DNA of 64,000 nucleotides, taken from Asterella californica (taxonomy: Eukaryota; Streptophyta; Marchantiopsida; Marchantiales; Aytoniaceae). The translations under genes were made by a program, and so were the position numbers. Below the pieces are notes generated by a model. The model was not told the origin of the DNA, made no database searches, and worked only from the letters and a program-made list of their open reading frames with translations. The stretch covers positions 34,409,501-34,473,500 of the forward strand of contig JAYKYS010000001.1 in NCBI GenBank assembly GCA_036924285.1, in the 5' to 3' direction. How positions within the stretch are numbered: position 1 is the stretch's first letter; every line of letters begins with the position of its first letter. Shown one piece after another: positions 4,589 through 56,712 of this stretch.

Positions 4589-5677
4589 CTATATGATCTG
4601 AGTTTGAGGCATCTTCTGCACAACTTCCTCCCTTGCTCGTGTCTTCTCCTTCTTCTTCTTCTTCCGCGTCTTCTTCTCTTGTTCAGATTCGGATTCTGAA
4701 CTTTCGACAGTAGACTCTTCAGAAGTAGAGGCTGCTTCCGAATCACTGTTATCAGTTTCAGTGGACTTGGACTTCTTCTTGGACTTCCGGGAAGACTTCT
4801 TCGACTTCTTGGACTTCTTCGAGGTCTTCCCCTTGTCTTTCGTCATATTCCGAGTGATGCTCGAGGTTTCATACTGCTCGGCATGCTTCTGTACTTCTGC
4901 TAAATCATCACCTCCTCCTCTTCTGCAATACAATTCCATATCCTGAGACAATCCTCCCAAGTACCAGTCCACAGCTTGCTGAGCACAGTAGCCGGGTCTT
5001 CCTTGGTTCTGAGGGATGTGATCCAGGAGGTCTTCAAACCTCTCGGTGTAATCCCGCAGTGTCTCTTTCTTCTTTCGTTCGAGTCTCTGAAGCTCTATGA
5101 AGGTCATACGATCGTAGCCCACTCCTCTGAACCTCTTCAGAAAAGCTGCCTTCAGAGTAGCCCAAGCGGCCATTACTACAACATCATCCAACGTTTTACT
5201 CATCCACTTCCTTCCTTTCCCTTTGATCAAACTGGAAAATACACGGAGTCTGTCAACATCAGCGTCTTCCTTGTTGGATCTAGAGATGGTCTCGAACATC
5301 GTGATGAAGTCGTCCGCATCATCATCATCGTCGTACGGATGGTACTTCTGCCGAGTGTGGGAAGCCATGTTGACTGCCGGCTGGTGCGACTGCCAACTTC
5401 TTTCTTCCTCAGGTCCAGGTGGTGGAGATGGTCTTCTCGAAGGTCCAGGCCTGTCTGAATCAGGAAGATCGTCTTCTGAGTCAGAGCTACTGTCACTGCT
5501 ACCTCCCGAGACGTCTGGAACAATCTCCTCCAGTCTTCCCTCACCTTGAGAAGCTTCTCCCGCACTTGGGAAGACGTCTTCCGAGTAACCAGTACCGAAA
5601 TCTACTTTATACACGTGATCACCCGGTTGGCTTCTGTCTTCGCCAAAGATTATGCTCGAGATGGAAGGTTCTTCCAA
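4589..5677 (-). CDS. gag: Gag (capsid) of element A
   Basis: The frame is open from 5854 but has no ATG in frame before residue-rich gag sequence; 5677 is a TTG, so the real start is unresolved, or an ATG has been lost. A retrotransposon gag domain lies in the middle (WMSKTLDDVVVMAAW, LRDYTERFEDLLDHI, QAVDWYLGGL), preceded by an acidic Ser/Pro-rich region with DDDDDADDF and followed by a Lys/Ser-rich tail (KKSKKSKKSSRKSKKKS). Role: forms the virus-like particle. It ends at UAG 4589-4591, after which the same frame continues into the zinc knuckles, so the stop separates capsid from nucleocapsid. Confidence 0.78.
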   Translation of the reverse strand: MEEPSISSIIFGEDRSQPGDHVYKVDFGTGYSEDVFPSAGEASQGEGRLEEIVPDVSGGSSDSSSDSEDDLPDSDRPGPSRRPSPPPGPEEERSWQSHQPAVNMASHTRQKYHPYDDDDDADDFITMFETISRSNKEDADVDRLRVFSSLIKGKGRKWMSKTLDDVVVMAAWATLKAAFLKRFRGVGYDRMTFIELQRLERKKKETLRDYTERFEDLLDHIPQNQGRPGYCAQQAVDWYLGGLSQDMELYCRRGGGDDLAEVQKHAEQYETSSITRNMTKDKGKTSKKSKKSKKSSRKSKKKSKSTETDNSDSEAASTSEESTVESSESESEQEKKTRKKKKKEKTRAREEVVQKMPQTQII

Positions 5678-6171
5678 CTCTATCGATCGGATCTTCTTGA
5701 GCTCTTCTTCTTTCCTTTGGTGTCTCAGGGATATCCGCTGCTCTCTAGAAGCGGTTCGCTGGGGTGAGTTTACCCACTCAGGATCTTTACCCGTGCGTCT
5801 TCTGCTTCTTCCTCCGGTCGGAGGTATCCACCAGAGTACCGAGAACAGATGTCTCTATCCTTCTACCACTAGATCTGGTAGACCAAATGACTGAACAACC
5901 GATCACAAGTTCAGAACGTCTTCTTCTCCTGCTTCTGGTTGCACTCACTGCAATCTTCCAAGATCGAGTCTTCCAAGGAGTTCTTGGAAGCAGGGAAGCG
6001 GCTTCTTCCAACTCTCCCTGATGTATCTTACCAACTTCTGGTTGCGGTTCCTGTCTTCTAGCAAGATAGAGTCCCACAACACATTCAACTACAATCGAAG
6101 TTAGTTCGAAACGAATCCTAACTAATGGCACGCAGATCCAGGAAGCTAGAACAGAAGTTACTAAGATGAAA

Positions 6172-6189
6172 TCCCCGGCAGCGGCGCCA
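6172..6189 (-). promoter_or_regulatory. Primer-binding site of element A
   Basis: Minus strand reads TGGCGCCGCTGCCGGGGA, the tRNA-complementary start site of minus-strand DNA synthesis common in plant gypsy elements (Asp-type tRNA by my recollection). It lies 19 bases inside the LTR end at 6209, which is a longer gap than usual. Confidence 0.8.
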
Positions 6190-6208
6190 AAAATGGTTCC
6201 TCACTATA

Positions 6209-7470
6209 TGTAGTGACGAAGGATTTCTCCTTTTGCCCATTTAGTATACAAGATATCGTTCCCACAGAGGATTTGCACAAGTAACGCTGCTCTAAGTTCT
6301 AAGATCTGTTCAAACACACAAACACACGGGTTTTGTCTAAAAATCCCGTCTTCTCACAAAACCACACAAACCAACACGTCTTCCAGACACGCCAAATGGT
6401 GCTCTGGACCTAAACAAACAACTACCAATTACAATATCACACAACTATTCACAAAGAAGCTCGGGAAGACGAACTTCCTGCTTCCAGGTTGCTTCTTCGG
6501 TCTTCTCGATACCGTCTTCCCGAAGCGATTCTCGTCTTCTGGGGGTTTAGCTCGTCTTCTCACACCTCCAGAAGGCTGTCTTGCTTCGCAGAAGTCGACT
6601 AGTAACAGTCATTACACCTTATTCTCACACTCACATTCCAATCGGGTTGGATCAATCACAGGGTGTATGCCCCATGTAGCCTTCCCAGGCTTCTGCCTAC
6701 GGAAGTTGTCTTCCTGCAGCACTACAACGACATTCACCTTCACGGAAGCTCAATAGAAGTATCGGAAGCTCACTAGAAGAAGATAAGAAGATGGAGAAGA
6801 TGGAGAAGATGAGGGAAGATGGGAAGAAGAAGAAATCCAAACAAGAGAAAACAGGATGAAAAAGGGCAATTAAGATTCCGACAGGCTTCTAGTCCGGATC
6901 CTGACTAACAAGCCATCCCTGCTTGTAATAGTTTGGGGAGGAAGACAACAAACGTGAGTACTGTAGCACCGTCTTCTACTCGAGGATGTCGTCTTCTGTT
7001 GCGGGAAGAAGGCTTCTTTCTTCTTCACTTCGCTGCTCTGACTGCTCTGTCTTCTGGGATCACTTACCCAGAAGACCGTTCGTACGTAGATCCCAAGTGC
7101 TCTACTGAACGAGTCAAGCTACACTTCCACAACGGCTGACAGTCATCGCCACTCAAGAAGAACACTTCCCATGCACAATTGGGAGCGAATTCAATACATT
7201 CCACCACCCAGAAGACATGGACAAAGCGTCTGCACTCAAATCAACAATCTTTTCCCCAAGAAGAAGTCACAATGGCATTGGGAAGCTCACTCCCTCTACT
7301 TCCTGCGTCTACTCCTCGACACACCAGTCTAGCTAACAGGACTGCACGAGGATGCCGTTCCCTGTTCCTAGACTGTCCCTGCTCTAATGTGTCTCTCCTG
7401 CCTGCCTGTAGAATCGGTGTGTATGTTCAGTTACTGCCGAATTCTACAGAACTGGCAGCTTGCAACAGCT
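6209..7470 (-). repeat. 5' LTR of element A, downstream part
   Basis: On the minus strand it ends CGTCACTACA next to the primer-binding site. It is similar over about 1.25 kb to the end of insertion F (about 20240-21589) and more distantly to 46137-47512, including the shared stretch around GTGGGAACGATAT. It is crowded with GTCTTC and GAAGAC: five lie within 6421-6600. The LTR start (right border) was not found; sequence similarity to F stops near 7466, so this copy may be truncated, or a different upstream LTR section may follow. Confidence 0.72.
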
Positions 7471-14641: not shown

Positions 14642-15649
14642 TCAAATCCAAAACCCTCCGCAAACAGTTCCGTCGTGAAACTCGTGCATTATCTTGAACG
14701 CCTCCTTCTGACCAACTGCTCTCCTTAGTAATCCATCTGATCCTTGATGAAACAGAATTCCCTCCACCATGGTGTAAGGTTTGCATCTCTTGATCAACGC
14801 GTTACATTCTCGAGTATGCATACCTTCTGGAAAAGAGCCATCTGCAAGGAAACTCCTGATTTCCTTGTACTCGTCCGGTATCTCCTCAATGCTTGTGATG
14901 GTCATCAGATGCTCGTTTGGAAATGAATCATCAAATGGTTCTTCTCCCTCATCATCAGAAGCCCTTGACAAAAGATCAGCATTCGCATATTTTTTCCCTG
15001 GTCTATCTTCGATCACATAATCGTATTCTGTTAGAAGTATCTTCCAACGAGTAATACGACCTTCGGCATTAAGCTTATTAAAGATATACTTTAAAGCCTT
15101 GTGATCTGTGACTATGGAAAATTTCCCTCCTTGCAAGTAGTGTCGAAATTTCTTCAATCCAAAGATCACCGCTAATCCTTCTCGTTCAGTCACGGAGTAA
15201 TTCTTCTCCGCTGGAATCATCTGCCTATGAGCATAAGCTATGGGATGATCATACCCATCTCGATCTAACTGACTTAATGTACATCCGATTGCTACATTGG
15301 AGGCATCCATATACAGAATAAATGCTTTACTCCACTCAAGTTTAGCAAGTATAGGAGCTGTCACCAATGCTGCTTTCAGCTCCTCAAATGCTTCCTTTGC
15401 CTTCTGATCATGCACTATCAAGTCAAAATCAACTCCCTTCTTCATGTACATAGTCAAAGCTATTGCTTTGTTTGAGAAGGAAAAGACAAACCTACGATAA
15501 TATCCAACCATGCCAAGAAACTACCTCAACTTTGTCAAGTTGATCGGAAATGGAAGATCCACAATCTTTTTCACCTTCTCAGGATCTACCGCAATCTCAT
15601 TCTTGGAAATGATGTGCCCTAACAGCAGACCTTCTTCCAGCCAAAGATG
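14642..15649 (-). pseudogene. RT end, RNase H and integrase start of element C
   Basis: Begins next to insertion F with EEGLLLGHIISKNEIAVDPEK, then TKLR, a TAG at 15521-15523, and FLGMVGYYRRFVFSF; Gln is usual at the TAG position. RNase H shows ILYMDASNVAIGCTLSQ, VTEREGLAVIF, VTDHKALKYIF and DRPGKKYANADLLSR. The integrase zinc module starts with EFHDGTVCGG. Frame ends at TGA 14642-14644 and continues in the same frame beyond it. Confidence 0.85.
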
Positions 15650-15804
15650 TGTGGTGCCCACAAATTACAGGATGCACGAATTTTTGAAATTTTTAAGAAT
15701 AATAACTTGTTTGTATAACTGAAGAAGCGTTGTTACTTAAGGTTACGTCTTCCTTAACATGAAGATGACCTTATGAGCTTTTTAATAAGAAGTTGACTTC
15801 TTCG

Positions 15805-15911
15805 GAAGACGACCGTCTTCGGAAGAGCGTCTTCTCAGTTGTGTCTTCGGAAGACGGGAAGACGGTAGAAGATGAGAAGACGGCGGAAGACACCTGTCTT
15901 CCGGAAGACAG
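15805..15911. promoter_or_regulatory. Cluster of GAAGAC/GTCTTC words with an 18-bp palindrome
   Basis: Ten copies of GAAGAC or its complement lie in 15805-15909, several head-to-head, ending in the perfect palindrome CTGTCTTCCGGAAGACAG at 15894-15911. A 14-base unit TGTCTTCGGAAGAC is repeated in tandem at 16747-16774 with one change. Such arrays can be protein-binding sites; the role here is unknown. Confidence 0.6.
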
Positions 15912-17663
15912 CGACCGCGAAGGCATAACCACGAGTTTTTGGGTAAAACAGTAGGTGTACCTACTGGGTCGCACCGAATAGGTAGGTAGGTCGGAGAAGA
16001 CACCTAATGTCGAGAACCCCTAATCTGCGGGGAAGATGCGTAAGGAAGCACATTAGGCGCATTCCAACTTCTCGCAGCACAGCACGCTTGAGAAGATCGA
16101 TTGGAGAGAGTGAGCTTCGCAAGTAAGCTTTGAGAGAGGAATCGAGTGAGGACATCGAGGTAGGAGAGAACCAGTTGACAGCTAGGCGAAGGGCGAGACC
16201 GAATTGCTAGAGCACAGAAGGCAGAAAGCAAAAGCGTTTCTGTGAGCTCCTGAGAAGTTGACATTGGAGAGTAGCGAGTAGAATCGAAGGTAGAATCGAG
16301 GCGTGGCCAAAAATTGACAGCAGGCGCAGTCGGGAGGGGTCGCATTGAAGCTAGGACAAGAGCCAGAAGCGCGCGGAGGTCGAAGACAACTCGGGGAGCA
16401 GAAGAAGACTGTAGAGGTTCTTCCCCACGTTCTTTCCCCTTCTCACTTCTTCTCGCCATTGTCTGGTATTCCCTGCGCTTCCTTGGTTGTGTGCAGGCAG
16501 CCTGATCGATTACCCCACCCCCCATTCTTTCTATTGAGACATTGGGCGCAGAAGCACTGCCCAATTTCTGTCAGACATCTCCTTGCTTCTTCCCGAGCTC
16601 AATTCGAGCTTCCCTACTCCTAGCCCTCAAATTGGAGATCCCAATTATCAATTTCCCTACCCTACTACCTCTCTATTCCCGAAACCCGGAACAGAAGACG
16701 ATTCGGAAGATGGGAACATCTTCGAAAGACACTTCTTAAACTTGACTGTCTTCGGAAGACTGTCTTCGGAAGTCGACTGAACACAATTCGTATCAAGAGT
16801 GGATTTGTGTTGCTTTGTGTTAAGAGAGGCTTGGTACGAATCCCGAGTGGTGTGGTGAGTTGTTTTGTTATTTTGAGAAGTTGGAAGTCGGGAACTAGGC
16901 CTGTGCCTCCCGGTCTTCCAAGCTTCTCCAACTCCACATCTTCCTAGAGAGACTAGAAGACTGAAAGGCTGGCAAAACGAGCGAGAAGACGTGAGGGTCC
17001 ATTCGGATCTCTTCTGTCCGATCCATAGCAGCCATTCCTTCTTCTTCCTGAACTTAGAAGAGAGTCGTGAGAATACTTGCTGGCAGAATCTGGAGAGAAT
17101 GGTCGAGGGTCATGTCTTCCCACCGAGCAGCAAGGTTCTTCTGAGTGCGTATGAGAGGTGAGAAGTCAGAAGAACAGAGTGCAATTGTCTTGAGTCTGTT
17201 GTGAGGATAGATTGCGCGTAGGAAGACGAAGACATGTGAGACCAGTGAAGGGAAGTCTGACTTCGGGAAGTCTTCCGAGAAAGACATTGAATCGGAAGCT
17301 GTCTCGAGTGTCTTCCCAGAGGCCACTGTCACCGCAGGAGCCCGCAACCAACTTCTGAACTTGTCTTGCACTTTATGTTTAGCGAATCTTGTATCTTCTG
17401 ATAGGAAGTAGGATGTAATGCAAGGTGGGTTGTCTTCTTGGTAATCCATGTGAGGCCTTGCTTAGATAGGATTGTTGAGATATAGCTCGGAAGACGAGAG
17501 CTATCTAGGAAGTACTGTTAGAATCCCGGAAGACGGAGCAGCTGTCTTCTGGAAGACTAGTTTCGTCTTCTGAGAAGTAGAAGCTAGACTGTGGGCACTT
17601 GGGAAGGACTGAGCCTTCAGCTCATAGTAAGTGCTTATGGCTTAGTGCAACAGATCTTCCAGC

Positions 17664-19963
17664 ATGCCGATGCACCCGCGAGGCTTGGTGTTACCAGCGG
17701 CAGAATTGGCCGAGGCCACTCCTTTCCTCAAGGAGTTGGGTCTCGACTTCTTCCTGTGGGATTGGAACCTCGCAGATCAAGGACTTCTCAAGGAGGTGTG
17801 GGCAGCGTTGCCACCTCGTAACCGTGTACCTGCGAAGGCAGGAGTAGCTCGAGGAAGACCGTCTTCCTGGACTGAAGACTGGTGGCGTAAGGCTTTTCAC
17901 AGGTCTGAATCCGAGAACCGAGGATATTGGTACGAGAAGAAGATCTTGCCTAGAATCGTGAGTTCATGGCATGTGCCTGGGAGCACCACCTGCCTTTTTG
18001 TGGAAGACAGGCAGGGGAGGAACGGTTGGAAGATAGAATCTTACCGGGAGCCGAAGAAGCGACTTCTGGCAAAGTTGTTTCTGCATCTCTTTCTCAAGGG
18101 GAAAGCGCAGAAGACAAGGTACTTAAGAGATCAGGACGTGGAGTTCTTGGAATCCGTGTGGGATGACAGGGTGCCCATCTACTGGAGCGCGTACATCCAC
18201 AACTACGTACAGACGGAGCTAGCATACTTGGGTACCCCGGCGGTAGGACACTTGACACCCTTCCTCTGCTACTTGTATGTAGCCATGGGGGATCTTAGGG
18301 AAGATCAGCTGGTAGGGTACGGGCCAACGGAGCGACAAGAGGTGAAGGAGGAGACCTCGGAAGACGATGACCGAGAGGCACCAGCAACGTCCCCTCCCAC
18401 TCTGATGCCACAGCTGAGGCCCGGCTCTCACCAGAAGACGCTTCTGGTGAGGGAAGACGAGTCTAGTGGGTCGGAAGACGCCACGCCACTGAAGAAGATG
18501 GGTCCCAGAAGTGTACCGAGGACACCCATCTCCCTCATTCATTCAGGATCGGAGTCCGACTCGGAAGAAGACCTGCTGAGTACCCGATCAGAGCAGAAGA
18601 CCGCTTCTGCAATACATGGGAGTCTTCCGAAGACTCCAGAAGACGAAGGATGGATGGGCGCTCCTGCTGCGATACGAGGAAGCGCAAAGAAGAGAGCCGC
18701 TCCTGCCATGAGGAGTCTTCCACCCCGGAAGATGAGAAGAGTAGCTTCTTCTCGTGCGCAGAAGATGAAGGCTATTGTGGTCGAAGAGGCTTCCTTGCCT
18801 TTGGAAGACGAAGTCGACACCACGGAGCGAGTGGTGGAGAGGAACTTGTCTTCCGCAGGAAGACGACTGGAGGAGTTCAGCGCCTACTTCCAGAAGGAGA
18901 TCCAGCCAGCTATGGAGTTGCTGGAGAAGAGAGCGAAGGCACAGGAGAGGCCCTTGCAACCTGGGTTCGGCCTGCGCACCTTGCTGCGACAGGGAGAAGA
19001 CCAGAAGAAGACAGAGTCGCTAGAAGCTAGTCTCCGCACCACGGAGAAGCTTGCAGCCAGGTACAAGGCGGAAGCAGCCGCTTCTGCCAAGGAGCTGGTG
19101 CAGCTTCGGAAGAGCAACTAGGAGTTGCAGGCGCGGGTACAGCAGCGTAATCAGGAAGTCACCCAAGTGCGGGAGAAGATCACCGCCCTCGCAGAAGAGC
19201 AGACCATATGGAAGACGCAGCGAGAAGCCGTAGAAGCGCGAGCTGCAGTTGAGACGACGCAGAGGGAAGCAGCAGAGGTCCGTGCATAGAAGATGCTGGT
19301 ACAGTCGGTGGAAGCGCTTCGGAAGAAGTTCAACTACACCGCGGGTAGGAAGTTACTTATCTTAGCTAGAAGATGGGACAGCGAGTCCAAAGTAATGTTG
19401 GTGGAATGCCGGGAGAGCATGTTCAGGTACTTGGATCGACAGATAGAAGGAGTGAAGACACTTTATGGTCTTCCCTCGCTTCCGACACTTGCAACCGCAT
19501 CTTCCCACGCTCCAGCACCATCGACTGGATCCGAAATGGAGAAGGAGGAGTTCGACCTCGCTGTACACTTGGTGATGACAGCGTTGGAAGCCGCGAAGAC
19601 TCCAGAAGACGCCCCGGAAGACAGGAAGACGAGCCGTCTTCCCAAGTATTCCACGTGGAGGAAGCGACTTCCTCGGATCCCTATGAGGTCTCCATGGTCC
19701 CTAGTCCCGCACCCGTGCCTCAAAAGACAGAAGAAGCACCGGTCGACTCCGCTTCCCAGAAGACGCTTCTGTCTTCCGAAGCAGAAGCCGAAGCCGAGGA
19801 AGACGCAGCAGCAGCGACAGCAGAGCCAGCCAAGGACGATGAGGAGGAAGCCATCTCAGTGACACCCGAGGTAACTGCAGGGCTTTCTAGCTTATCAGAA
19901 GTCGCATTAGGAGCTCCGATAGGAGCAGATCAGGTAGAGATTGCCTCCGTGCAATCTGAGTAG
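17664..19963 (+). pseudogene. LTR-encoded protein of insertion F (unknown family; globular plus coiled coil)
   Basis: ATG at 17664; open to TAG 19119-19121, then the same frame to TAG 19287-19289 and on to about 19620, after which the acidic, protein-like tail (EEATSSDPYEVSMV to ASVQSE, ends 19963) lies in another frame, suggesting one frameshift. Both TAGs fall in a coiled coil where Gln fits. Residues about 1-210 form a Trp-rich globular domain (FLKELGLDFFLWDW, GRNGWKIESY, IYWSAYIHNYVQ) similar to the D and H proteins. Residues about 215-390 are acidic and Ser-rich; a Glu/Lys/Ala coiled coil follows from about 400. It overlaps no gag or pol. Architecture recalls plant putative gypsy-type transposon domain proteins, but I cannot show homology. 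Confidence 0.7.
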
Positions 19964-20239
19964 TTAGTAACTCCATTGACAATTCTAAATATAATAGGAT
20001 CGAACATGCTATCTTAAGAGTGGCAATTTTTCCATGTAAAATTAGTTAGGATCCCATGTGGCAGCATAGGTAGCGTAGGAAGGACAAGGTGGATAGCCAA
20101 TTCAGACAGGGGAACCGCTTGCATGTGAGGTAGCAACCTCCTGTCAGCGCCTCTCTCTCCCTGGTGGTCGTCTCCCCTGGTTCTCATGGCAGCGACATAA
20201 GTAGGATCGCAGAGTAGGAGGAAGAGTTCTGCATGTTCT

Positions 20240-21589
20240 GCCAGTTCTAAAACGTCCAGTAGTCGATTCTATGGTGCAGGCAAACTAGACACATTAGAGA
20301 GAAGACACCTGATAGATAGTTCTTCGCACTACACCCGTTGTTGGAAACATACGAATAGTCTTGGAATACACAGGAGGGGTCTGCATACTCGTACCAGCAG
20401 TGGTTCGAAGATGTAGATAGAAGTAGTGGACAGTCTAGGAACATGGAACGGCATCCTCGTGCAGTCCTGTTAGCTAGACTGGTGTGTCGAGGAGTAGACG
20501 CAGGAAGTAGAGGGAGTGAGCTTCCCAATGCCATTGTGACTTCTTCTCAGGGAATAGATTGTGGATTTGAGTGCAGAAGCTTTGTTCATGTCTTCTGGAT
20601 GGTGGGTTCCTTGAATTCGCTCCCAATTGTGCATGAGAAGTGTTCTTCTTGAGTGGCGGTGACTGTCAGCAGTTGTGGAAGTGTAGCTTGGCTCGTTCAG
20701 TAGAGCACGTGGGATCTACGTACGAACGGTCTTATGGGTAAGGGATCCCAGAAGACAGAGTAGTCAGAGCAGCGAAGTGAAGAAGAAAGAAGTCTTCTTC
20801 CCGCAACAGAGGACGACATCCTCGAGTAGAAGACGGTGCAACAGTACTCACGTTTGTTGTCTTCCTCCCCAAACTATTACAAGCAGGGATGGCTTGTTAG
20901 TCAGGATCCAGACTAGAAGTCTGTCGGAATCTTAATTTACTCTTTTCATCTTGTTTTCTCTTGTTTGGATTTTCTTATCTTCCCCATCTTCTCCCATCTT
21001 CCCCATCTTCCTACCTTCTTCTAGTGAGCTTCCGAGATTTCTATTGAGCTTCCATGAAGGTGAATGTCGTTGTAGTGCTGCAGGAAGACCATTTCCGTAG
21101 GCAGAGGCCTGGGAAGGCTACAGAGGGCATACACCCTGTGATCAATCTAACCCGTTGGAATGTGAGTGTGAGAATAAGGTGTAACGACCGTTGCTGGTCG
21201 ACTTTTGCGAAGCAGGACAGCCTTCTGGAGGTGTGAGAAGACGAGCTGAACCCCCAAAAGACGAGAATCGCTTCGAGAAGACGGTATCGAGAAGACCAGA
21301 AGAAGCAACCTGGAAGCAAGAAGATCGTCTTCCCGAGCTTCCCTGTGAATAATTGTGTGATATTTTAGTTGGTAGTTGTTTGTTTAGTTCCAGAGCACCA
21401 TGTGGCGTGTCTGGAAGACGTGTGGTTGTGTGTGGTTTTGTGAGAAGACGGGCTTTTTGGACAAAACCCGTGTGTTTGTGTGTTTGAACAGATCCTAGAA
21501 CTTAGAGCAGCGATTACTTACGTAAATCCTCTGTGGGAACGATATCTTGTATGCTAAATGGGCAAAAGGAGTAATCCTGCGTCACTACA
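20240..21589 (+). repeat. A-like LTR end within insertion F
   Basis: Near 20240 the sequence begins to match, in opposite orientation, 6209-7466 of element A: shared CTGCCAGTTCT, GGAACGGCATCCTCGTGCAG, CTACGTACGAACGGTCTT and GTGGGAACGATATCTTGTAT. It ends CACTACA. The 19964-20239 stretch before it has no gene I can recognise. Confidence 0.8.
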
Positions 21590-21594
21590 AGATG

Positions 21595-26540: not shown

Positions 26541-27199
26541 GTGGATACTATGTCAGTGCATGCTTATGTTGCAAGAAGTCAGCATGAAGCTGTACTAGAA
26601 GAAAAATGCAGGAGGGAGGATGCATGTGAGGCTTCTATAGCCAAACGGCCTGCTACAAGGAGTGAAGGGGCTAGACCAGAGACAAAGCAAGAGAAAACAT
26701 TTACTCGGGAGGAGACTATGGAGGATCTACCACCTACAACACCCAAGGAGAAGGAAAGAAGCAAGGAGAAGGGTAAGATGCTTGCATACAAACTTCAGTC
26801 TGACATTGAGATTGCTACAGACCTGAAGCAAGTGTTAGAGAATCGTATCTTGAATGGGAAGGTTGAGTTTACGTTGGGTGAGATTCTTGGGATTGCAAAG
26901 CGTGAGTTCCATGAGGTTATCATAGATATCATCAAGAGGAAACGTCAGATTTTGGGTGAAGCAGCTACGCTTAACGCTCTAGGGACCAAACTGTCGGAAG
27001 ATGAGGGAGATGAGATTCTTGGTTACTACTCTCAAGTATTAGAGGGGAGATCGTATCTGCACGTGAGATTTGAAGATGAGGTGGAAGCATCGCAGAAGAG
27101 CCATTACTCTCACAACCATTGGGCAAGAGCAACCACAGAGACCTTAGTGAAGCTAGGAGATCTCGAGGAACCTGTGGTGGCGTTGATTGATCACGGCTC
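26541..27199 (+). pseudogene. gag: Gag C-terminal part of element B2
   Basis: Reads MSVHAYVARSQHEAVLEEK, charged linker (TPKEKERSKEKGKM), LQSDIEIATDLKQVLENRIL, LGEILGIAKREFHEVIIDII and ends in the protease start VVALIDHGS, where a solo LTR is inserted. Frame is open throughout. B1 has the same segment split by insertion D. Confidence 0.82.
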
Positions 27200-42200: not shown

Positions 42201-42812
42201 TGTCGGTCCGTACACTATGAAGTCTTGATTTTACATTTTTGTTAATTAATTTACTGGTTGTAGAGTAAATAAGAAGAATAGGTAGTAGAAGATATAAGAT
42301 AAAAGTAGAGTTTAGTGAAGAAGATCTATTCTTGAGGAATCAAGAGAAGTTGTGAAGTCAGTTTGGATGGAAGTTCCTCATGAATGGATTCTTTGAGTGG
42401 AGAGCTTTCTAACGATATGTTATGCGAGACAAACGGAGTCCAAATGACGAAGTTACTAAGGATTGAAGAATCGATGAAATCGATGAGGAATGATCTTTTC
42501 GTACTTCGATCGACGAAGAACTTCGGCGGTCTGTGAAACCTTAATTGTGACACATGTGACAAAGGTGTAGTGATGTATAAGAGCGACGAGTTAGGTCATT
42601 TGTCATATTGTGTCAAAAGTGCTAGAGAGGGTGAAAAGGCTGATAGAAAGATATCGACAAAGAAGCTTCTCTTCGACGAAGACTGTTCAAGGAAGAAAAT
42701 TATAAGTGAAGAAGGTCATTCTTCTTTCCTCACTCTGTTCTTCGTACCTCAACACATCTGCATACTACAATATTTTCTTCTTCGCACTTCATCAACTCTT
42801 CCTACTTCATAG

Positions 42813-44500
42813 ATGCACGACATGCAGACATCGAAACCATCACGACTTCGGACCTTGGATATGAACTATGCAAGACATTGTAGATATGAGAAGGACCTCG
42901 AGGATATGACGTTGTCTTTTCTTTTACTACTGTGGTGGTCGATGGTGTCCTCGAAGCTGATCCAAGAACTTCGGATGTGCCGAGAGCATCCTTCGGAGGA
43001 GTCATATGAGAGGTTTGAGAACTGGATCGAAGAAAACTAGAGCTTCCTACTAAGAATCGACAAAGTAGAAAAAGAAGGAGATCTGCTGTTTGACAGCACT
43101 TCGTTGCACACACCAGTGGAATCGCTGAGGAACTTTTCTCGCTTGTTCAAGGAGCTACCTCAAGGGAGGAACAAATATCGTATAAGAGACTTCCTCGACG
43201 CGAAGAAGCACGAGGTAGCAAATGCGATTATGGATATCTTTCGACTGAAGAGGACAACTTACATGTAGAACTGGCAGATCTCTTCATTGAAGAACTCTTC
43301 GTCCATAAGAGAGCACGTTGGATGAGGATGTACAGAAGTTGTGGATCAAAGACGACATGATGTACATCGACGTCTTTGTATCAGTCTTCTACATGAGGAT
43401 AGGGTTGATCATCAAAGAAGACAAGAAGAAGTTAGGCTTCGTAGATCAATCCGAAGAAGATGCATTTGTAGTGGAGCCAACTCCGTAAAGAGATGTACCG
43501 ATGGAGTAGCTCTTTGATGAAGTTGCCACTGACAAAGTCATGAATGAGTCAGAGATCGTGAAATTGGACAAAGTTGACGATATCGAAGAAGTCGTAGCGA
43601 CTGTATGAAGAAGATGACGAAGAAGAATATTGGGAGAGACACCAAGGTCTACGTCGTCGACTTCTTGGAAGAAGATGAAAAGAAAGCGAACAGTGTATAT
43701 AGAGGAGTTCAATGTGGACGATGTCGCTATGGAGGAATAAGAAACATCGATCAAGAAGAAGAAGGAAGAGGTCGATGAAGTACAAAGACGTTCTTCTTCG
43801 ACTGAAGATGTTCATCGATTGAGTACTTCGGTGAAGTACCTACAAGAGGTGGTGGTATCATTGCTCTTCGCTCTCGAAGAGAATCATGATACGTATAAGC
43901 AGATGGTCCGGAGATAGTTAAACTTGACAAGGCTTGTATAGATGTTGAACTTCAGCGGAGGTAGTAGAGAAGGAGAATCTACGAGCTACTATCTTGGCGG
44001 TGAAGAGGGAAGTCACTACGAAGAGAGAAGAAGTACGTAGACTGACTTCGGAGCAAGAAGTCTTACTTCGTCAGAAGTCTGAGATCAGGAAAGAGCACGA
44101 GAATGTGTTATTTTGGCAAAGAAGGAGCTAATCGAGATGAGATTTCAACCCGATGTCAAGATGTCGTAGCGGAAATGACTATGGAAATAGAGGAGTTGAA
44201 GACGAAGTGTACTTCGGCCGAAGAACAATCAGCGATTGTTCTTAGTCGAGTTGAGCTGACGTTGAAGAATTATTAAACGACGGATATGGATACTTCGGAG
44301 CTAGATCTTCTCTGAGAGATTAGACAGGAGTTAGTGATAGAAGATGTAGAGGATTCTTCGGCAAAGAATCGAGTAGCTATGCTAGGACAGAGGGTAGTGA
44401 GAGAACTTCGGGAGATTAGAGCAACTATAGAGTTCTCGGTTAGTGAGATAGTTAGAGAGTTGGCGTTAGATTTTGGTGTTGTTCCTGGTGTCATTTTTGG
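42813..44500 (+). pseudogene. Broken LTR-encoded protein of insertion H
   Basis: Pieces in several frames parallel the D protein: FLLLLWWSMVSSKLIQEL with RMCREHPSEES (D: LLENWGVISSDLLQE with ICRGHSSED), then GDLLFDST, GRNKYRIRDF, IFRLKRTTYM and NWQISS, and at the C-terminus VIEDVEDSSAKNRVAMLGQR with ELREIRATIEFSVSE (D: SAKSRIVRLAERI, DLKELRETVKF). Stops include TAG after WIEEN (about 43037) and before NWQI (about 43267), plus frameshifts. Clearly dead. Confidence 0.75.
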
Positions 44501-44579
44501 ATGTAAGATCTTCATCGGTCAGTACAAATATTCACTCTACTTCTTAGGAAGTCAGATCTGGTGATTTTGGACGAAGTTG

Positions 44580-44587
44580 TATATAAA
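44580..44587 (+). promoter_or_regulatory. TATA box of insertion H
   Basis: TATATAAA lies just downstream of the ORF end, within a block that aligns with D (AGATC then GACGAAG-TG-TATATAA). It marks the likely LTR promoter and puts the ORF in U3. Confidence 0.6.
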
Positions 44588-45240
44588 CGTTGTGTTGTTC
44601 ATTTTGTTCATTCTTTGGACCCCTCAAGTTTTTATTTTGTTATTTGAATTTTATGTTATTTACAGGGCCAGTGTGTAGTTGTCTTGTTTGGAGTTTTACC
44701 TACAAAGTTTCATAGTGTGTTGTGGTAGGAGTTAGTATAAGTGATGAAGTACTTTGTCGGTTGCACGCGAAACTTGAGAGAAGTTTAAGACGAAGACTGA
44801 AAACAAACCAGCAACTACGAAGTAGTTTTAAGACGAAGTACTTTAGAGGAAGTGTTCTTCTTGAGAAGTATCTTCGATCTGAAGTTCTTTTTAGGAAGCA
44901 GTTTTGAAGAAGTATTCTTCGTACTTCGACGGAAGAAGATAATTCTTTGTCAGAGTTTCCGATAACAGTAATGGTGAAGATATCTAGCGTTTATAGTGAT
45001 AGAGGCTACTTAGTAGCACTTCAACAATACTTCTCTAAGAAGATTTATCATTCGTGGCTCCGTACTCTTGTGTTTATCTGTTTCTTGAGGTCCTTGACTT
45101 ATTTAGTATATGTTACGTTATTTGTCAAGATTAGCAACTCTATCTTGTTGGAAAGACTTGAGTTTGATCTCCACCGGTGTTGAGAGCGTGAAGTTTGATA
45201 TGAGAATACATGGGACATCTGACTGTAGAGAGATATAGCA

Positions 45241-46136: not shown

Positions 46137-47512
46137 TGTAGTGTCTCAGGATTTCTCCTTTACACCATTGTAGCATAAAAGACTTCGTTCCTCAAGAAGA
46201 TTTACACTTAGTTACACTGTTTTAAGTTCTAAGATCTGTTCAAACTCACAAACACCCTAGTTTTACCCAGAAGTTCCTTCTAACTCATAAAGCCATGCGG
46301 CTTCCAGACCCTTTAAAAGACGCTCTGGATCACAACACACAACTATTACTTAAAATACAACACAAATATACACTGAGAAGACATGGAAGATGATTATCCT
46401 AGCCCAAGCTTCCAATCTTCTCACGTCGGCTTTCAGAGGCAAATCTCGTCTTTTGAGGGTTCAACTTGGCTTCTGACACCCTTAGAACACTGCCACTGCT
46501 CAGTAGATGCCAATTACTACTCCATACCACAAATTATCATTACGATATTCAACTGATTAGATCATTCACAAGGTGTATGTCTTCTTAACCTTCCCAGGCT
46601 TCTGCCTGTTGAAATAATCTTCTGGTAGCACTACAACGATACTCACATCCACTGATACTCACACAAAGCTTCTATAACCAAGTAGAGATAGAGTGAAGAT
46701 GGGAAGATGAGAGAAGAGAAGGAAGAAGAGAAAATTAACAAAAGAGAAATGAAAGAAAAGAGAGAAATCAATCTTCCGATAGGTTTCTAGTCCGGGTCCT
46801 GACTAATAAGCCATCCTTGCTTGTAGTAAATTGGAGGAGAAGATCGAATATCTACTTACAGTTCCACTATCTTCTTGTTGAGGATGTGGTAAGAAGCAAT
46901 CTGATGTGGTAAGGAGCAATCTGCCAGCTTCTGTATACTTTAGGTCTTTCCGCTCGAGGCAGTCCTGGAGTTACTTACCACCCACTGTTCTTTTGACCAA
47001 ATGAGGTTTTACAGGGGTTTAGACCTGTGTCGATACTCTCATCACCTAAATCTTCGACTTCTTGCTTGGTACTCAGTCAACTTCTACAAATACTGCTTCT
47101 AGCTTCTTCTGCCCTTGCTTCGACTACTCTGTCTCAAGAGATCAATCTCTTATGGACAGTCCGTATATGGAACCGAAGTGCTCCACTAGATGAGACAAAC
47201 TTGGACACTACAGAGCTTCTAACAATCACCGCCACTCAACAGGAAAACTTCCCATGCATAATTGAGTATGAATTCGATGAAACCCAATCTCTAGAAGACT
47301 TCTGTAAGCAAAAATTATCAATCAAATCCATGAGAAGAAGTTACATCGGCTTCTGGTAGCTACTCCTTCAGCTTTCTGTCACTACTCCTCCACACACCAG
47401 ACTAAACAAGACTATATGAGGATGTCGTTCTCTGTCTACTCTATCTACTCCTGTCTACATTCCTGTGATCCTCTCTTAAGTGCGGAGGTGCAGACCTACT
47501 ATGTGCGCGTTG
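46137..47512 (-). repeat. A-like LTR end, interrupted by B3
   Basis: Minus strand ends GAGACACTACA at 46137. Landmarks shared with 6209-7470: GTTCTAAGATCTGTTCAAAC, CAGGCTTCTGCCT, GGTTTCTAGTCCGG-TCCTGACTAA and TAAGCCATCC. More diverged than F is from A. Element B3 begins at 47513, so the remaining LTR would lie beyond the window. Confidence 0.7.
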
Positions 47513-48136: not shown

Positions 48137-50113
48137 ATGGGCCATCTCCCACGCTTGTACAGCTCCTTAGACATTAGATTAATCTCTGAGCCATGATCAA
48201 TCAACGCCACCACAGGTTCCTCTAGATCTCCCAGCTTCACTAAGGTCTCTGTGGTTGCTCTTGCCCAATGGTTGTGAGAGTAATGGCTCTTCTGCGATGC
48301 TTCCACCTCATCTTCAAACCTCACGTGCTGATAGGATCTCCCCTCTGATACTTGAGAGCAGTAACCAGCAATCTCATCTTCCTCATCATCCGACAGTTTG
48401 GTCCCTAGAGCATTAAGCGTAGCTACTTCATCCAAAATCTGACGTTTCCTCTTGATGATATCTATGATAACCTCGTGGAACTCACGCTTTGCAATCCCAA
48501 GAATCTCACCCAAAGTAAACTCAACTTTCCCATTCAAGATACGGTTCTCTAACACCTGCTTCAAGTCTGTAGCAATCTCAATGTCAGACTGAAGTTTGTA
48601 TGCATGCATCTTACCCTTCTCCTTGCTTCTCTCCTTCTCCTTTGGTGTTGTAGGTGATAGATCCTCCATAGTTTCCTCCCGAGTAGGTGTTGTCTCCTGT
48701 CTTGCCTCTGGTCTAGCCCTTTCACTCCTTGTAGCAGGTCGTTTGGCTGTAGAAGCCTCACCTGCATCCTGCCTTCTGCGTTTTTCTTCGAGTACAGCTT
48801 CATGCTGACTTCTTGCAACATAAGCATGCACTGACATAGTATCCACAGGGTCATTCCATCCTGTAGTTTCTCGAATTGAGTTGCCAACCCTCCGTAGCAC
48901 ATCCTTGTCTAACTCTGTTCTAGCTACGGATCGCACTACATCAGACCACAACCCAGTAGTTCCTTTCTCTCTCTCCATTTCCACTTTCACTCCACACGTA
49001 GCAGCATTCACAAGAGAAACAACATGTGATGCTGATATCTCATTCACAAGTCTCTTCATACCACCCTTGCCAAAGTTGGTTCCCAACATTATCCCAGTCT
49101 CTCTCAGATGGATCTTACCATCTTTGAAGAAGATCATATCCTTCCTCAATGCATCTGAAAACTCCCCACAATCTCTTCTTACATGGTCTAGGCTATCACA
49201 CCATATACAACGATGAACAAAGTCTTCTCTCATCTGAGGTCTCTGCAAAGCAGGCTGTACATTCTGCTCCTTCTCTTCTAACCTAGTGAGCTTAAGCTTA
49301 AGCTCCTTCATACCCTTAATCAACTCATCAAGCGATGAGTCTTCCTCTCTAGCAATTACATAAGCGGGTTTAGTAGGCAACTGCTTGACAGGAATTATGA
49401 GAGGTGCTGCTTCACTTACCACCACCTTGTCCCTTCTTCTCTGTCTCTTGGTCAGCAAAGAAACAGCCTCTTCAACCTCCTTCCAATCAGTCTTCAATCC
49501 TCTCTCCCTCACTCTTGTCTTCCAGCAACAGCTCAAGCTTCTCCTGAATAGTCACGTCCGCTGCTTGTAGGAAAAGCTCTGTCTTCTCCACCTCTAGTGT
49601 AAGCTTCTCTGTCCTAGAAAGCTGAGCATACTGACGATCAAACTCCCTTAACAACTCATTTACAGACAAACCTTTGTTAGGCTTCACCACCCACTCCAAG
49701 AACGTTCTCTTGATCACCCTCTCTGAATCTTCAATGTAGTACTCCTCCTTCAAAGCTCGCATAAAGCTCTCCCAACTCTGTCCTTGCTGCTGCTTGAGCT
49801 CTTTCACACGCCCCCGAATCTCAGGCACAACAGCAAGTTCAAAGTTCTCCACCATCTCCTTCTCAGGTACCTTGTTCACCTCCATCTCCCTAGCATAGTA
49901 TCGCACGTACTTGGAAATATCTGTCTCCTTGAACTGGTCCATCTGATGCCTTGATTGCAACGCCTTGGTTGCTAATACCTCCTTCCTCTCTGTGGTCTGC
50001 TGCTGCTGCATAAACATGGAAAAAGCTTGAAACATCTTCATCGTAGCAGCATCCAACTGAGCAGGTTGCTGAGCAGCAGCAGCACCTCCACTTGATGATC
50101 CTTGGTTGGCCAT
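48137..50113 (-). pseudogene. gag: Gag and protease start of B3
   Basis: ATG at 50113 (MANQGSSSGGAAAAQQPAQL). Capsid: DISKYVRYYAREMEVNKVPE, SWESFMRALKEEYYIED, SVNELLREFDRQYAQLS. A one-base insertion near 49500 shifts the frame; afterwards come TKRQRRRDKVVVSEAAP, a zinc knuckle CIWCDSLDHVRRDC and the region leading to the protease motif VALIDHGSEINLMSKEL. Frame runs on through the deletion junction into antisense-free LTR sequence and stops at 48073. Best-preserved family B gag in the window. Confidence 0.85.
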
Positions 50114-53427: not shown

Positions 53428-54250
53428 TTTACTGTAACAACCCAGAGAAACACAAAGTATCGGAAATAGTAAATTAAAGATCGTTCCCACGAAGATACAG
53501 TTAACAATTACACAAAACACAGTACTACAACGTCACAATGATAATTCAGATAGTTTTCTGTTATTCTCACGGAATGGAATAATATCCGGATGAGAGTTCA
53601 AGTCTGATAAGAAACCAAACCCAAGTACAAACCTGATAAATCGAATACAAACAACAATGAAATAGTTCTTTGATCAGGGACCCTTCCGACAAACATAAAT
53701 AGAAGATTCGAGAAGACAAATGTGTGGGTAAATGGGGTAGCAAAATACTGCTGAAATGTTACTAGTCTTCTGAAAAGACAGAAGAATACAAATTTCACAT
53801 CAAGGTTCAAAGAATAAGCCCCTACTCTTCCTAAGAAATGTTCTTCCAACTAAATCCTCACTCTTAAGAATCCCACTTATTTGAAGAAGGCAGACTTAAG
53901 ACGAAGCCACCATCATCCAAACTCTTCTTACAATTTAACTTATGCTTCTCCACTTCACAGTAACTAATGTATTCTCAGATCTTCGTTCAAACACCTTCGA
54001 AGTATACAGTCTCAACTTCGGCCGAAGTCACCTTCGGTCAAATTCTCCACTGAAGTCACTTCGTCCGATGTAAATGATAAAGGCCTTCGTCAATCAGAAT
54101 TACACCTGCGACAGCAAACTACGTCCTTCGTAGGTAAATCGCCTTCGCCCACTTTCATTCACACACTCACTCCGCAATCTTGCGCAATTGAAAATTAAGA
54201 AACAAAAATTGAAAACATGGAAAAGGTAAAATGACTGAAACTCGTATCGC

Positions 54251-54257
54251 TTATATA
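54251..54257 (-). promoter_or_regulatory. TATA box of insertion D
   Basis: Minus strand GAAGGAGTATATAAGCG, about 65 bases after the ORF stop, aligned with the TATA box of H. It is the likely LTR promoter, downstream of the ORF. Confidence 0.6.
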
Positions 54258-54321
54258 CTCCTTCGCCCTAAGATGGCGGATCTCATTTCCTACAAAAGAT
54301 GGTCACATCTAGACCGCATGA

Positions 54322-56100
54322 TCACGACTCCCCAGTTGACGGAACCGCAGTATCTACTCTACCTAACTGTAACTTCTGTCCTAAACTGCATAGTGTAAAC
54401 TTAACTGTCTCTCTAAGCTCCTTCAAATCTCTAATGATTCTCTCCGCTAGTCTAACTATTCTGCTCTTCGCCGAAGGATCTGGTGCTATAGTTAACTCTG
54501 CCCGAAGCCGCTGGAGAAGCTCCAACTCTGTCCCATCAAGTTCGGTGGCGAAGTAGGTTGTCGTGACCTCATCCACCTTCGTCCGAAGTTCTTCGGCCTT
54601 CGCCTCAGCTATTTCCTTTGCTTTCTCTGACTTCGCTAGCTCCTCATCCTTTGCGACCAACTGTTCGTCCTTCGTCGCAAGCTGTTCCAACATGGCATCT
54701 CTCTCAGACTTCAGATCGTGAAAGCGTGCAGTCATGAGACTCAACTTCATCTCTACCTCTTGAATCTCATCCAAGTATCGCGTCTGTTCGTGTGACTGCT
54801 GTATGAGTAACGCCTCCCGTTGTGACATGTACTTCTTGACATCGGCCGAAGTCTTCTCTAACTTCGCCATAAGAGCATCCTTCTCCTTCAACCATCCATA
54901 CCGCCCGAAGTGCACAGCGTCGAGAAGGTCACTCAATGAAATTGGTTCCTTCGTCTCCTTCTCATAGATATGTCGTTGAAGATCCATCTGTGCAATGAGT
55001 GGCAATGCTGTACCACTTAGGAACTCAAGAGTCTGCTTGAACATCTTCAATTCCTTCCCGACATTGGCGTCACTCGGTCCCGCCGAAGTTGTCGCTTCTC
55101 CTGGTTTAGGCGAAGTCCGAAGTTCTGGAACTTCCCTCTCTGTTGTATGCTCCTTCGAGAGTACCCTGCGCACACTTGATTCTGCTTGGTCTCCTCCCGG
55201 TCTCACTATTCCCAATATCTCGACTGAAGATGACTTCGCTGGAGATTTAGCGCCATCAACATCTTCGTCCGAAGTCGTTATCGTCGTTCTTCTTGCTTTC
55301 TTCTTCTTCCTCGAAGTCGCACCCCCTGGTGTAAGTTCGTCGAGCTTCCTCTTCGTCCGAGTACTAGGTCCCGCCGAAGTTGTCACTGGTGTCGTTACTT
55401 CTTCTTCTCTCTGGGGAGTAGCTTCCATTACCCGCTCATCTTCCGAGATCGTTCTTCGGTCGAACTTCTCCTCTTCTTCTGGTGATAGCAACTTCATTCC
55501 CTTGTAGAAGAATACTGCGAAGGCTGCAAAGTACGTCGACCCGCCTTCGTCGAAAGTGTTGAAGAGCTTCTGTACATGGTCGTGGAAGATCTTCGCCCAA
55601 TACGCTTTCCTACCCCCGAAGATCTGTTCGATGAAGTTAATCTGCCAATTGGCCAGATAAGAAGTACGTTGCGATTTGAAGATGGTGTTGAGGGCGATCG
55701 CCACATCCCGCTTGAAAGGATCGATGTAAGTGTGTACTTTGAATCCGTTCGATCCCACCGGTGACTTCGAGAAGAGTTTGCCATACTTCGCCACTTCGTC
55801 CGAAGTCGGCTTGCAAGTACTGTCATACATTAAGTCACCTGGCACTCCTGCGTCATCGATTCCTAGGGTGAAGTTCCAATGGTTCAGAGTCCAATTATTC
55901 GGCCTCGCCCGAAGATCTTCAGAGGAATGTCCTCTGCAAATGAGTATCTCCTGTAACAGATCCGAAGAGATCACGCCCCAGTTCTCCAGCAAGAACGCCA
56001 ACCCCATCTCCTCGAGTCGTTCTCGATACGGACTGAAGTCCGGCCACTTCGTCGCTATAGTCTTCAACTTCGGTCGCTTCGCTGTCTTCATTCCTCGCAT
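54322..56100 (-). CDS. LTR-encoded protein of insertion D, intact, unknown family
   Basis: ATG at 56100-56098 (MRGMKTAKRPKLK); the frame is open upstream to about 56229 without ATG, so 592 residues. Residues about 10-210 form a globular domain (LLENWGVISSDLLQE, GDLMYDST, GSNGFKVHTYIDPFKRD, YLANWQINFIEQIFGG, AYWAKIFHDHVQKLF). About 220-360 is charged and contains basic runs (SRKKKKARR, possible nuclear signal). About 370-570 is coiled coil (DEIQEVEMKLSLM, DEQLVAKDEELAKSEKAKE, SRIVRLAERIIRDLKELRE). No stop or frameshift. Homologs: F (17664) and H (42813). No catalytic motif seen. It might be structural, nucleic-acid binding, or a captured host protein; I infer no function. Confidence 0.82.
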   Translation of the reverse strand: MRGMKTAKRPKLKTIATKWPDFSPYRERLEEMGLAFLLENWGVISSDLLQEILICRGHSSEDLRARPNNWTLNHWNFTLGIDDAGVPGDLMYDSTCKPTSDEVAKYGKLFSKSPVGSNGFKVHTYIDPFKRDVAIALNTIFKSQRTSYLANWQINFIEQIFGGRKAYWAKIFHDHVQKLFNTFDEGGSTYFAAFAVFFYKGMKLLSPEEEEKFDRRTISEDERVMEATPQREEEVTTPVTTSAGPSTRTKRKLDELTPGGATSRKKKKARRTTITTSDEDVDGAKSPAKSSSVEILGIVRPGGDQAESSVRRVLSKEHTTEREVPELRTSPKPGEATTSAGPSDANVGKELKMFKQTLEFLSGTALPLIAQMDLQRHIYEKETKEPISLSDLLDAVHFGRYGWLKEKDALMAKLEKTSADVKKYMSQREALLIQQSHEQTRYLDEIQEVEMKLSLMTARFHDLKSERDAMLEQLATKDEQLVAKDEELAKSEKAKEIAEAKAEELRTKVDEVTTTYFATELDGTELELLQRLRAELTIAPDPSAKSRIVRLAERIIRDLKELRETVKFTLCSLGQKLQLGRVDTAVPSTGES

Positions 56101-56712
56101 CCTCGCTGAAGGTCCGAAGTACCTTCGATCTTCTATGCTTACGACACTTCTTCGTCGAAGTTGATACCTGATCGTGGAAACGTCGACTTCGGAGGTCGCC
56201 GTTTTAACCACCACAGCCTGCACCGATAAAACCTAACCCTTCGCCGAAGTCTGTCTTCGTCCTCTTTCTTCCGATTGATGAAAGCGGAGCACTTCAGTAA
56301 ACCCGCGATTGGAAACAGTAAAGTGAAAATGCTTTTTGATTCTTACTTATAGCTTTTCCTCTTCGTCTCCTCACGTGCGAAGTCTTTCTCGATTCTCGCG
56401 CGCGAAGTTGCGCCAACTCCTGTCTCATTTTAGTCTTTCTTTCCAAGGCCATAACTTCGTCGTCCGATATCCATTCTTAGCAAATGAGGTATCCCTGGAA
56501 AGCTCTTCGTCCGTAGAGTACAACCAAGTTATCTCCCCAATGATATATCTGACATAGCTTCTGTATTTCTACTCAGCATCATCCTTCGGCATAGAAATCC
56601 CATTCTTCACTGAATCTATCTTATCTATCATCTATACTAAACATTCTATTGGTTTACTTATCAAAAATAAAAAAATTCTTAACAAAGTGAAAATCCAAGG
56701 CTTCACATTTAC

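Follow-up and report, generated by a model that had tools for sequence, protein, structure and literature searches.

A gene inside the long terminal repeats of a Ty3/gypsy family in Asterella californica, and short DNA words that differ between sister families

The 64,000-nucleotide stretch of Asterella californica DNA analyzed here (the window; contig JAYKYS010000001.1, positions 34,409,501 to 34,473,500) contains a solo long terminal repeat (LTR) of a Ty3/gypsy element, termed D, which carries an unbroken open reading frame (ORF) for a protein of 592 amino acids. The same gene is present in both LTRs of full-length relatives, its pattern of substitution indicates that it is kept by selection while the elements replicate, and a homologue is encoded in the LTR of a sister family, F2, in the same window. 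Each family is enriched in a short DNA word of its own, CGAAG in D and GAAGAC in F2. From these patterns it seems somewhat probable that the LTR protein binds the word of its own family and keeps that family transcribed, from a gene in the U3 (unique 3′) region under a promoter of its own, P1. An initial annotation of the window had described the gene and proposed the solo LTR; the selection on the gene, the homologue in F2, and the family-specific words go beyond it.

D occupies positions 53433–56707. Its sense strand is the minus strand, on which it reads TGTGAAGCC...GGTTGTTACA; in the direction of the window its first bases are TGTAACAACC and its last bases GGCTTCACA. The TG and CA ends and the perfect 5-bp duplication TTTAC that had been noted before were read again, the duplication at 53428–53432 on the left and at 56708–56712 on the right (no strand is assigned to either). 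A repeat finder returned no terminal direct or inverted repeats in D, merely short internal ones, in agreement with the initial annotation, and no internal region of an element was found within 1500 bases on its flanks. An empty site had also been reported. In a scripted search, the joined flanks of D matched the window at two empty sites, both at ∼96%; one lies in another copy of the element that hosts D (26723–27017, plus strand) and the other at 48365–48664 (minus strand). A single LTR, a duplication on both sides, and no internal region identify D as a solo LTR from a Ty3/gypsy element.

The genome (516.7 Mb) was searched with the D unit and gave at least 43 matches (best 40 of 1630 candidates scored). 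Of these, 39 are near full length at 92%–97% identity (D itself 100%), and the unit is therefore not a product of chance. Several matches occur as same-strand pairs ∼10.0 kb apart from start to start, and the four such pairs that were read (L009–L012) are full elements in which 3.28-kb LTRs enclose a 6.7-kb Ty3/gypsy gag-pol. In all four, the repeated unit is the whole 3.28-kb LTR, and the ORF lies within both LTRs in the orientation of gag-pol. Perfect 5-bp target duplications are present in three of the four; in the fourth (C62), one LTR matches over only 3263 of 3275 bases. A primer binding site (PBS)-like sequence, TGGCGCCGCTGCCGGGGAT, which we take to fit tRNA-Asp, starts ∼20 nt past the 5′ LTR, and a purine tract, GAGAGGGGGAGTA (ending in GACTA in L012), precedes the 3′ LTR in all four elements. 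Pfam matches to L010 comprised Retrotrans_gag, zf-CCHC, RVT_1, RT_RNaseH, H2C2, and rve in Ty3/gypsy order; the match to an Asp protease was weak (E 2e-4, below its cut-off), and a chromodomain was not among the matches listed for this element. The family thus combines TG..CA LTRs and a 4–6 bp duplication with the gag-to-integrase order, a PBS, and a polypurine tract (PPT) of Ty3/gypsy elements. Other solo copies of the family have perfect duplications (L005, L031, and L035) or a duplication with one mismatch (L038).

These elements bear out the earlier inference of a parent with long, protein-coding LTRs, and the genome search proposed at that time, for the D unit at both ends of a gag-pol, is the one that located them. 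In none of the full copies read does the ORF lie between shorter LTRs. The other copies that were placed likewise carry it within the LTR and not between LTR and gag-pol, which is the position of the additional ORFs (aORFs) of plant elements. In L009–L012, gag-protease is followed by one in-frame stop and then by pol. The residues flanking this stop are identical in the four elements, a possible case of stop readthrough. Additional stops are found in gag-pro of L011 and in pol of L009, L011, and L012.

The LTR gene (54322–56100, minus strand) runs from the ATG at 56100 to the stop at 54322 within a stop-to-stop frame of 636 codons; translation confirmed the 592 residues originally reported. 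The protein has at least 75 matches in the genome (best 74 of 8976 candidates scored). Among the 75 listed, 60 reach from residue 1 to 589 or beyond, and 24 of these 60 are free of stops; a stop-free copy may still carry a frameshift, as is the case in 2 of the 24. For the analysis of selection, 45 fetched copies were placed on the D frame and codons with a stop were omitted. The two LTRs of one element (10 pairs, of which two pairings on C526 were inferred across 18.8 and 31 kb) differed by 30 synonymous and 85 nonsynonymous changes, with a ratio of nonsynonymous to synonymous proportions (pN/pS) of 0.82; the changes fell on codon positions 1, 2, and 3 in the numbers 49, 32, and 34, which is close to neutral. 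Between elements, the median ratio of nonsynonymous to synonymous rates (dN/dS) was 0.15–0.19 in each bin of dS, from <0.04 to >0.4, with individual values between 0.07 and 0.88 over 351 comparisons. This set held 27 copies after partial and second copies were dropped, or ∼26 elements, as two of them (L022 and L024) are probably parts of one. Seven between-element pairs picked from the 351 were set against the within-pair counts by Fisher tests, with p values of 3e-7, 1e-9, 4e-9, 7e-6, 4e-4, 2.5e-3, and 9e-9. The low dN/dS between elements, together with near-neutral change within them, therefore indicates that the gene is under purifying selection during element replication and decays after insertion. 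For comparison, D-family gag-pro had a dN/dS of 0.11–0.23 in six comparisons with dS >0.08 and of 0.31–0.56 in the three closest, and pol of 0.10 in one distant and 0.18–0.37 in six close comparisons. Within the LTR gene, the ratio of nonsynonymous to synonymous change was lowest in the N-terminal domain (0.64 versus 1.09 and 0.94; six pairs).

This N-terminal domain (residues ∼1–230) is the part of the protein that is common to family F2. It is followed by a basic linker with a nuclear-localization-like KRK...RKKKKARR and by a C terminus for which long helices are predicted (a low-confidence model). The protein is thus probably nuclear and may be dimeric through its long helical C terminus. 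Searches of Pfam and of the PDB gave no meaningful match; DUF1985 and DUF287 were absent from Pfam matches at E up to 1, and the PDB entries listed were coiled-coil or designed helical proteins. Against a set of 5.8 billion proteins, whose extent of plant content is not established, no homologue was found for the whole protein at E up to 0.001 (best 7999 candidates scored), for residues 1–215 at E up to 1, or, again at E up to 1, for an alignment of six sequences with F2 among them (best 7999 candidates scored).

Within the window, tblastn with the D protein found two further homologues, in F2 and in a decayed D-like LTR, F3. F2 is a solo LTR of 5940 bp with TG...CA ends (15650–21589, plus strand), and AGATG is present at 15645–15649 and 21590–21594. 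It interrupts a host pol: residues 137–276 of the D-family pol match up to 21594 and residues 288–750 from 15616, the match resuming 11 residues on across the insertion. These break points therefore bound the insertion where the AGATG duplication indicates. The homologue in F2 (17664–19118, plus strand) is 27% identical to the D protein over 222 amino acids (blastp E 2e-17). The ORF is stopped early in the window copy, and three other F2 copies carry stops elsewhere. In five comparisons with two F2 copies of ∼89% DNA identity, which do carry a signal of selection, dN/dS was 0.13–0.18 over the first 220 codons and 0.30–0.36 over the first 660; against its 95% relative, the window copy gave 0.30 and 0.51 over the same lengths.

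The coding part of an F2-type element is available in E1, of which gag-pol (1–6208) and the 3′ end of an LTR (6209–7378), both on the minus strand, lie in the window; the latter matches the end of the F2 LTR at 92.5% identity, which assigns E1 to this type. GAAGAC occurs 53 times in the E1 gag-pol, versus 7.8 expected. At the protein level its pol shares 66% identity with the D-family pol, and gag-pro is ∼37%–38% identical in the three stretches that were aligned. The PBS layout of E1 (window ∼6180–6209) resembles that of D-family elements, with a PBS-like start ∼20 nt past the LTR.

Expected word counts were obtained from dinucleotide shuffles for LTRs and from synonymous-codon shuffles for coding parts. 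The D LTR contains 65 copies of CGAAG versus 9.8 expected, and the F2 LTR 76 copies of GAAGAC versus 6.5 (the count is the same from 15650 or 15655). The excess is present alike in the noncoding 5′, coding, and noncoding 3′ parts of the LTRs. Each word is enriched in both orientations, ×5–16 in LTRs, ∼×3.5 in the D internal region, and ∼×7 in the F2-type internal region, which points to duplex DNA. In the D ORF, CGAAG was counted 38 times versus 12.4 expected and GAAGAC 3 versus 2.5; the corresponding values were 30 versus 12.7 and 11 versus 6.5 in D-family gag, and 13 versus 5.1 and 6 versus 3.8 in D-family pol. The other word prevails in the sister family, with CGAAG at 8 versus 5.2 and GAAGAC at 20 versus 7.1 in the F2 ORF, 8 versus 10.8 and 26 versus 7.6 in F2-type pol, and 3 versus 4.6 and 10 versus 4.6 in F2-type gag. 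Neither word was in excess in three other coding stretches of the window. When the window was divided into 20 tiles, six had a top 6-mer with a z score >8.5, and all six overlap the D, F2, or F3 families; their top words were AGAAGA (two tiles), GAAGAC (two tiles), GAAGAA (F3), and ACTTCG (D).

The word of D is also retained among diverged copies. Four D-family copies of ∼79%–83% identity keep 52%–74% of the CGAAG sites of D, compared with 31%–35% for other CG-bearing 5-mers, and 13–16 new CGAAG sites per copy hold the total at 50–61. Synonymous third positions within CGAAG were kept at 0.83–0.95, versus 0.65–0.80 elsewhere in the D ORF (p 0.0002–0.007 in the five copies given individually, of 18 pooled).

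Candidate promoters were sought in an alignment of 20 LTRs, of which 13 are D and its close relatives and some are both LTRs of one element. Candidate P1 of the LTR gene is TATAAG at 56346–56351 (minus strand; LTR sense position 357), and candidate P2 of the genomic RNA is TATATAAG at 54250–54257 (minus strand; position 2451), ∼65 nt past the ORF stop; each is present in all 20 LTRs. In 18 of the 20, the first ATG downstream of P1 is that of the ORF, at a spacing of 194–278 nt. With one TATA box upstream and one just downstream of the ORF, the gene is therefore probably located in U3 with its own promoter. The leader that follows P2 contains CAG/GTGTAA and, 336 nt on, CTTTTCAG/AA (54106–53770, minus strand); the donor-like word is found in 19 and the acceptor-like word in all 20 of the LTRs, a candidate intron of the genomic RNA.

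A word that is in excess in noncoding DNA, on both strands, and in synonymous codons, and that differs between sister families, fits a family-specific reader of duplex DNA. The LTR protein suggests itself as this reader because it is encoded in the LTR, selected, strongly diverged while pol is not, provided with a nuclear-localization-like signal, and perhaps dimeric. In the mechanism that we hold to be slightly the more credible, transcription of the LTR gene would start at an upstream promoter of its own, P1, and genomic RNA would initiate at the second promoter, P2, just past the gene. The protein, nuclear and probably a dimer, would recognize the word of its own family, CGAAG for D and GAAGAC for F2, and once bound would maintain transcription of the family, whether DNA methylation is removed or blocked or transcription is plainly activated. 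Because the gene and its candidate promoter would both lie within U3, every LTR, including solo LTRs, could provide the factor in trans. The word would diverge jointly with the protein, and sister families would become independent in this way.

Several results weigh against this mechanism. In the D internal region GAAGA (94 versus 30 expected) outranks CGAAG (43 versus 11.5), in the F2-type gag-pol AGAAGA (69 versus 11) outranks GAAGAC, and GAAGAA is in excess in F3. CGAAG and GAAGAC have the core GAAG in common, and similar purine-rich words are over-represented too. On CpG third positions alone, the synonymous test for CGAAG was not significant, with p values of 0.36–0.78. In noncoding LTR parts CGAAG was kept at 0.70, 0.67, and 0.52, versus 0.58, 0.53, and 0.45 for all 5-mers, a modest conservation that ranks 15–24 of 68. 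No TATAWA-type box was found close upstream of the F2 ORF; F2 has only a weak box at LTR position 65, far upstream of the ORF. Differences between the window copy of F2 and its 95% relative are not biased by codon position, and of 42 indels in the LTR ORF, 16 are multiples of three in length, without bias toward such lengths. AlphaFold, run without an alignment, gave no confident fold for the whole D protein (mean predicted local distance difference test score, pLDDT, of 44) or for its N-terminal part (pLDDT 37), and no DNA-binding domain was recognized in the Pfam and PDB searches. The link between protein and word is based on two families and one decayed D-like copy.

Some of these points would suit an accessory gene, env-like or gag-assisting, that landed in the LTR, with a word excess unrelated to the protein and arising from a host factor or from a family-specific codon or mutational habit. 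The accessible text of PMC11728184 reports additional ORFs in several Ty3/gypsy lineages of plants, no DNA-binding domain is recognized in the LTR protein, and the word is enriched in gag-pol as well, alongside other GAAG-rich words. Such an origin nevertheless appears unlikely, given an excess that extends to noncoding DNA, to synonymous choice, and to both orientations, words that differ between sister families despite a 66%-identical pol, and the three coding stretches of the window without excess. Less probable still is that the word is read in RNA, in packaging, dimerization, or Gag binding, and that the LTR protein binds RNA. Sense copies do outnumber antisense copies (39 to 26 in the D LTR and 51 to 25 in the F2 LTR), with a larger sense excess in the 3′ noncoding parts (×12 versus ×5), but the antisense copies are themselves enriched over the expectation from base composition, ×5–7 in the D LTR and ×5–16 in the F2 LTR.

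The freedom of the D copy from stops could also mean a chance or recently captured ORF that is merely undecayed so far; this reading is refuted by the selection test, and a dN/dS of ∼0.15 up to a dS of ∼0.9 across subfamilies and the 27%-identical homologue in F2 leave it hardly any probability. That D is a DNA transposon or a truncated two-LTR element, both raised in the initial annotation, is ruled out by the missing terminal inverted repeats and by complete copies of LTR-gag-pol-LTR structure that have PBS- and PPT-like borders, while further solo copies bear perfect 5-bp duplications and the copies read do not show truncation.

In anatomy, the nearest known case appears to be mouse mammary tumour virus (MMTV), for which the accessible text of PMC9412291 describes the sag/naf ORF in U3 with its own promoter, also named P2. 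In both cases a protein gene lies within the LTR, for D probably in U3, and is hence present twice in a full element; a promoter of that gene inside the LTR, besides the genomic promoter, would be a second common feature. MMTV is an animal retrovirus and its protein a superantigen, whereas D belongs to plant Ty3/gypsy elements with LTRs of 3.3–5.9 kb and a family-wide DNA word. A location of the ORF upstream of the genomic start, as in MMTV, would follow from the candidate box TATATAAG that all 20 aligned LTRs carry downstream of the ORF. Foamy viruses encode Tas, a retroviral transactivator that acts on their own LTR and is accompanied by an internal promoter. Like Tas, the D protein would be an element-encoded factor acting on its own promoters, but the Tas gene is located between the LTRs.

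In the logic of its action, the closest parallel may be with the VANC proteins, which, according to the accessible text of PMC5735166, bind words in noncoding tandem repeats of the Arabidopsis VANDAL (Mutator-like) DNA transposons. VANC proteins act in anti-silencing, and related VANDAL families have different words (accessible parts of PMC5735166 and PMC10398659). An element-encoded protein, a short element-specific word, and a difference in the word between related families are common to VANDAL and to D and F2, and in both LTR families such a word is enriched in the element. VANC proteins are encoded by a DNA transposon and contain DUF1985/DUF287; the D gene lies in an LTR and its protein has no such domain match. 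A further difference tells against the parallel: VANC words are found in noncoding tandem repeats, whereas the D and F2 words are dispersed and occur inside codons too. The role of the D and F2 proteins would accordingly resemble that of VANC in logic and not in sequence. The aORFs of plant Ty3/gypsy elements (Athila, Tekay; sunflower) are classed by their position 5′ or 3′ of gag-pol in the available text of PMC11728184. As far as that text goes, they are like the D gene in being extra conserved genes of unassigned role with nuclear signals and helical and disordered parts; they flank gag-pol, whereas the D gene is inside the LTR.

By title and abstract, no case of an LTR-encoded ORF in plants was found among the entries listed from the openly accessible literature, and an LTR-encoded anti-silencing factor is not named in the accessible portions of PMC12844716, PMC13317346, and PMC12859917. 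With a protein gene in its LTR, a solo LTR amounts to more than debris and may serve as a permanent gene with effects on related elements, and a gene inside the end repeats persists even when the remainder of the element is lost. LTR retrotransposons form the majority of many plant genomes. We tentatively suggest that D and F2 could represent a VANC-independent form of anti-silencing or self-activation in plant LTR elements, characterized by a factor gene in U3 under its own promoter, solo LTRs as autonomous factor genes, an element-wide word that extends to the codon choice of gag and pol, and co-divergence of word and protein. If the protein does recognize the word of its own family, this would be a second, unrelated invention of element-specific anti-silencing. 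The prediction for protein and word is sharp: D with CGAAG and F2 with GAAGAC.

Two further LTRs in the window are related to these families. F3 (42217–45110, plus strand, borders approximate) contains 40 copies of CGAAG versus 8.8 expected and a broken homologue of the D protein at 42813–43333 (36% identity). F4, a third LTR end at 46137–47506, is 69% identical to the end of the F2 LTR and has 3 copies of GAAGAC, versus 12 in the matching part of F2; it is perhaps another family with another word.

Elsewhere in the genome, at C627:27832249–27845853 (L022 and L024), a D-family element has a 3′ LTR that breaks off at base 315, and after it comes a D-family LTR in inverted orientation with a few leader bases. 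L022 and L024 differ at four sites in the ORF and are probably the two LTRs of one element, and the arrangement may be a product of self-insertion. The same contig has clusters of similarly scoring light-harvesting chlorophyll-binding genes at ∼2.9–3.0, 24.8–25.0, and 27.9–28.3 Mb; PF00504 has 67 matches in the genome.

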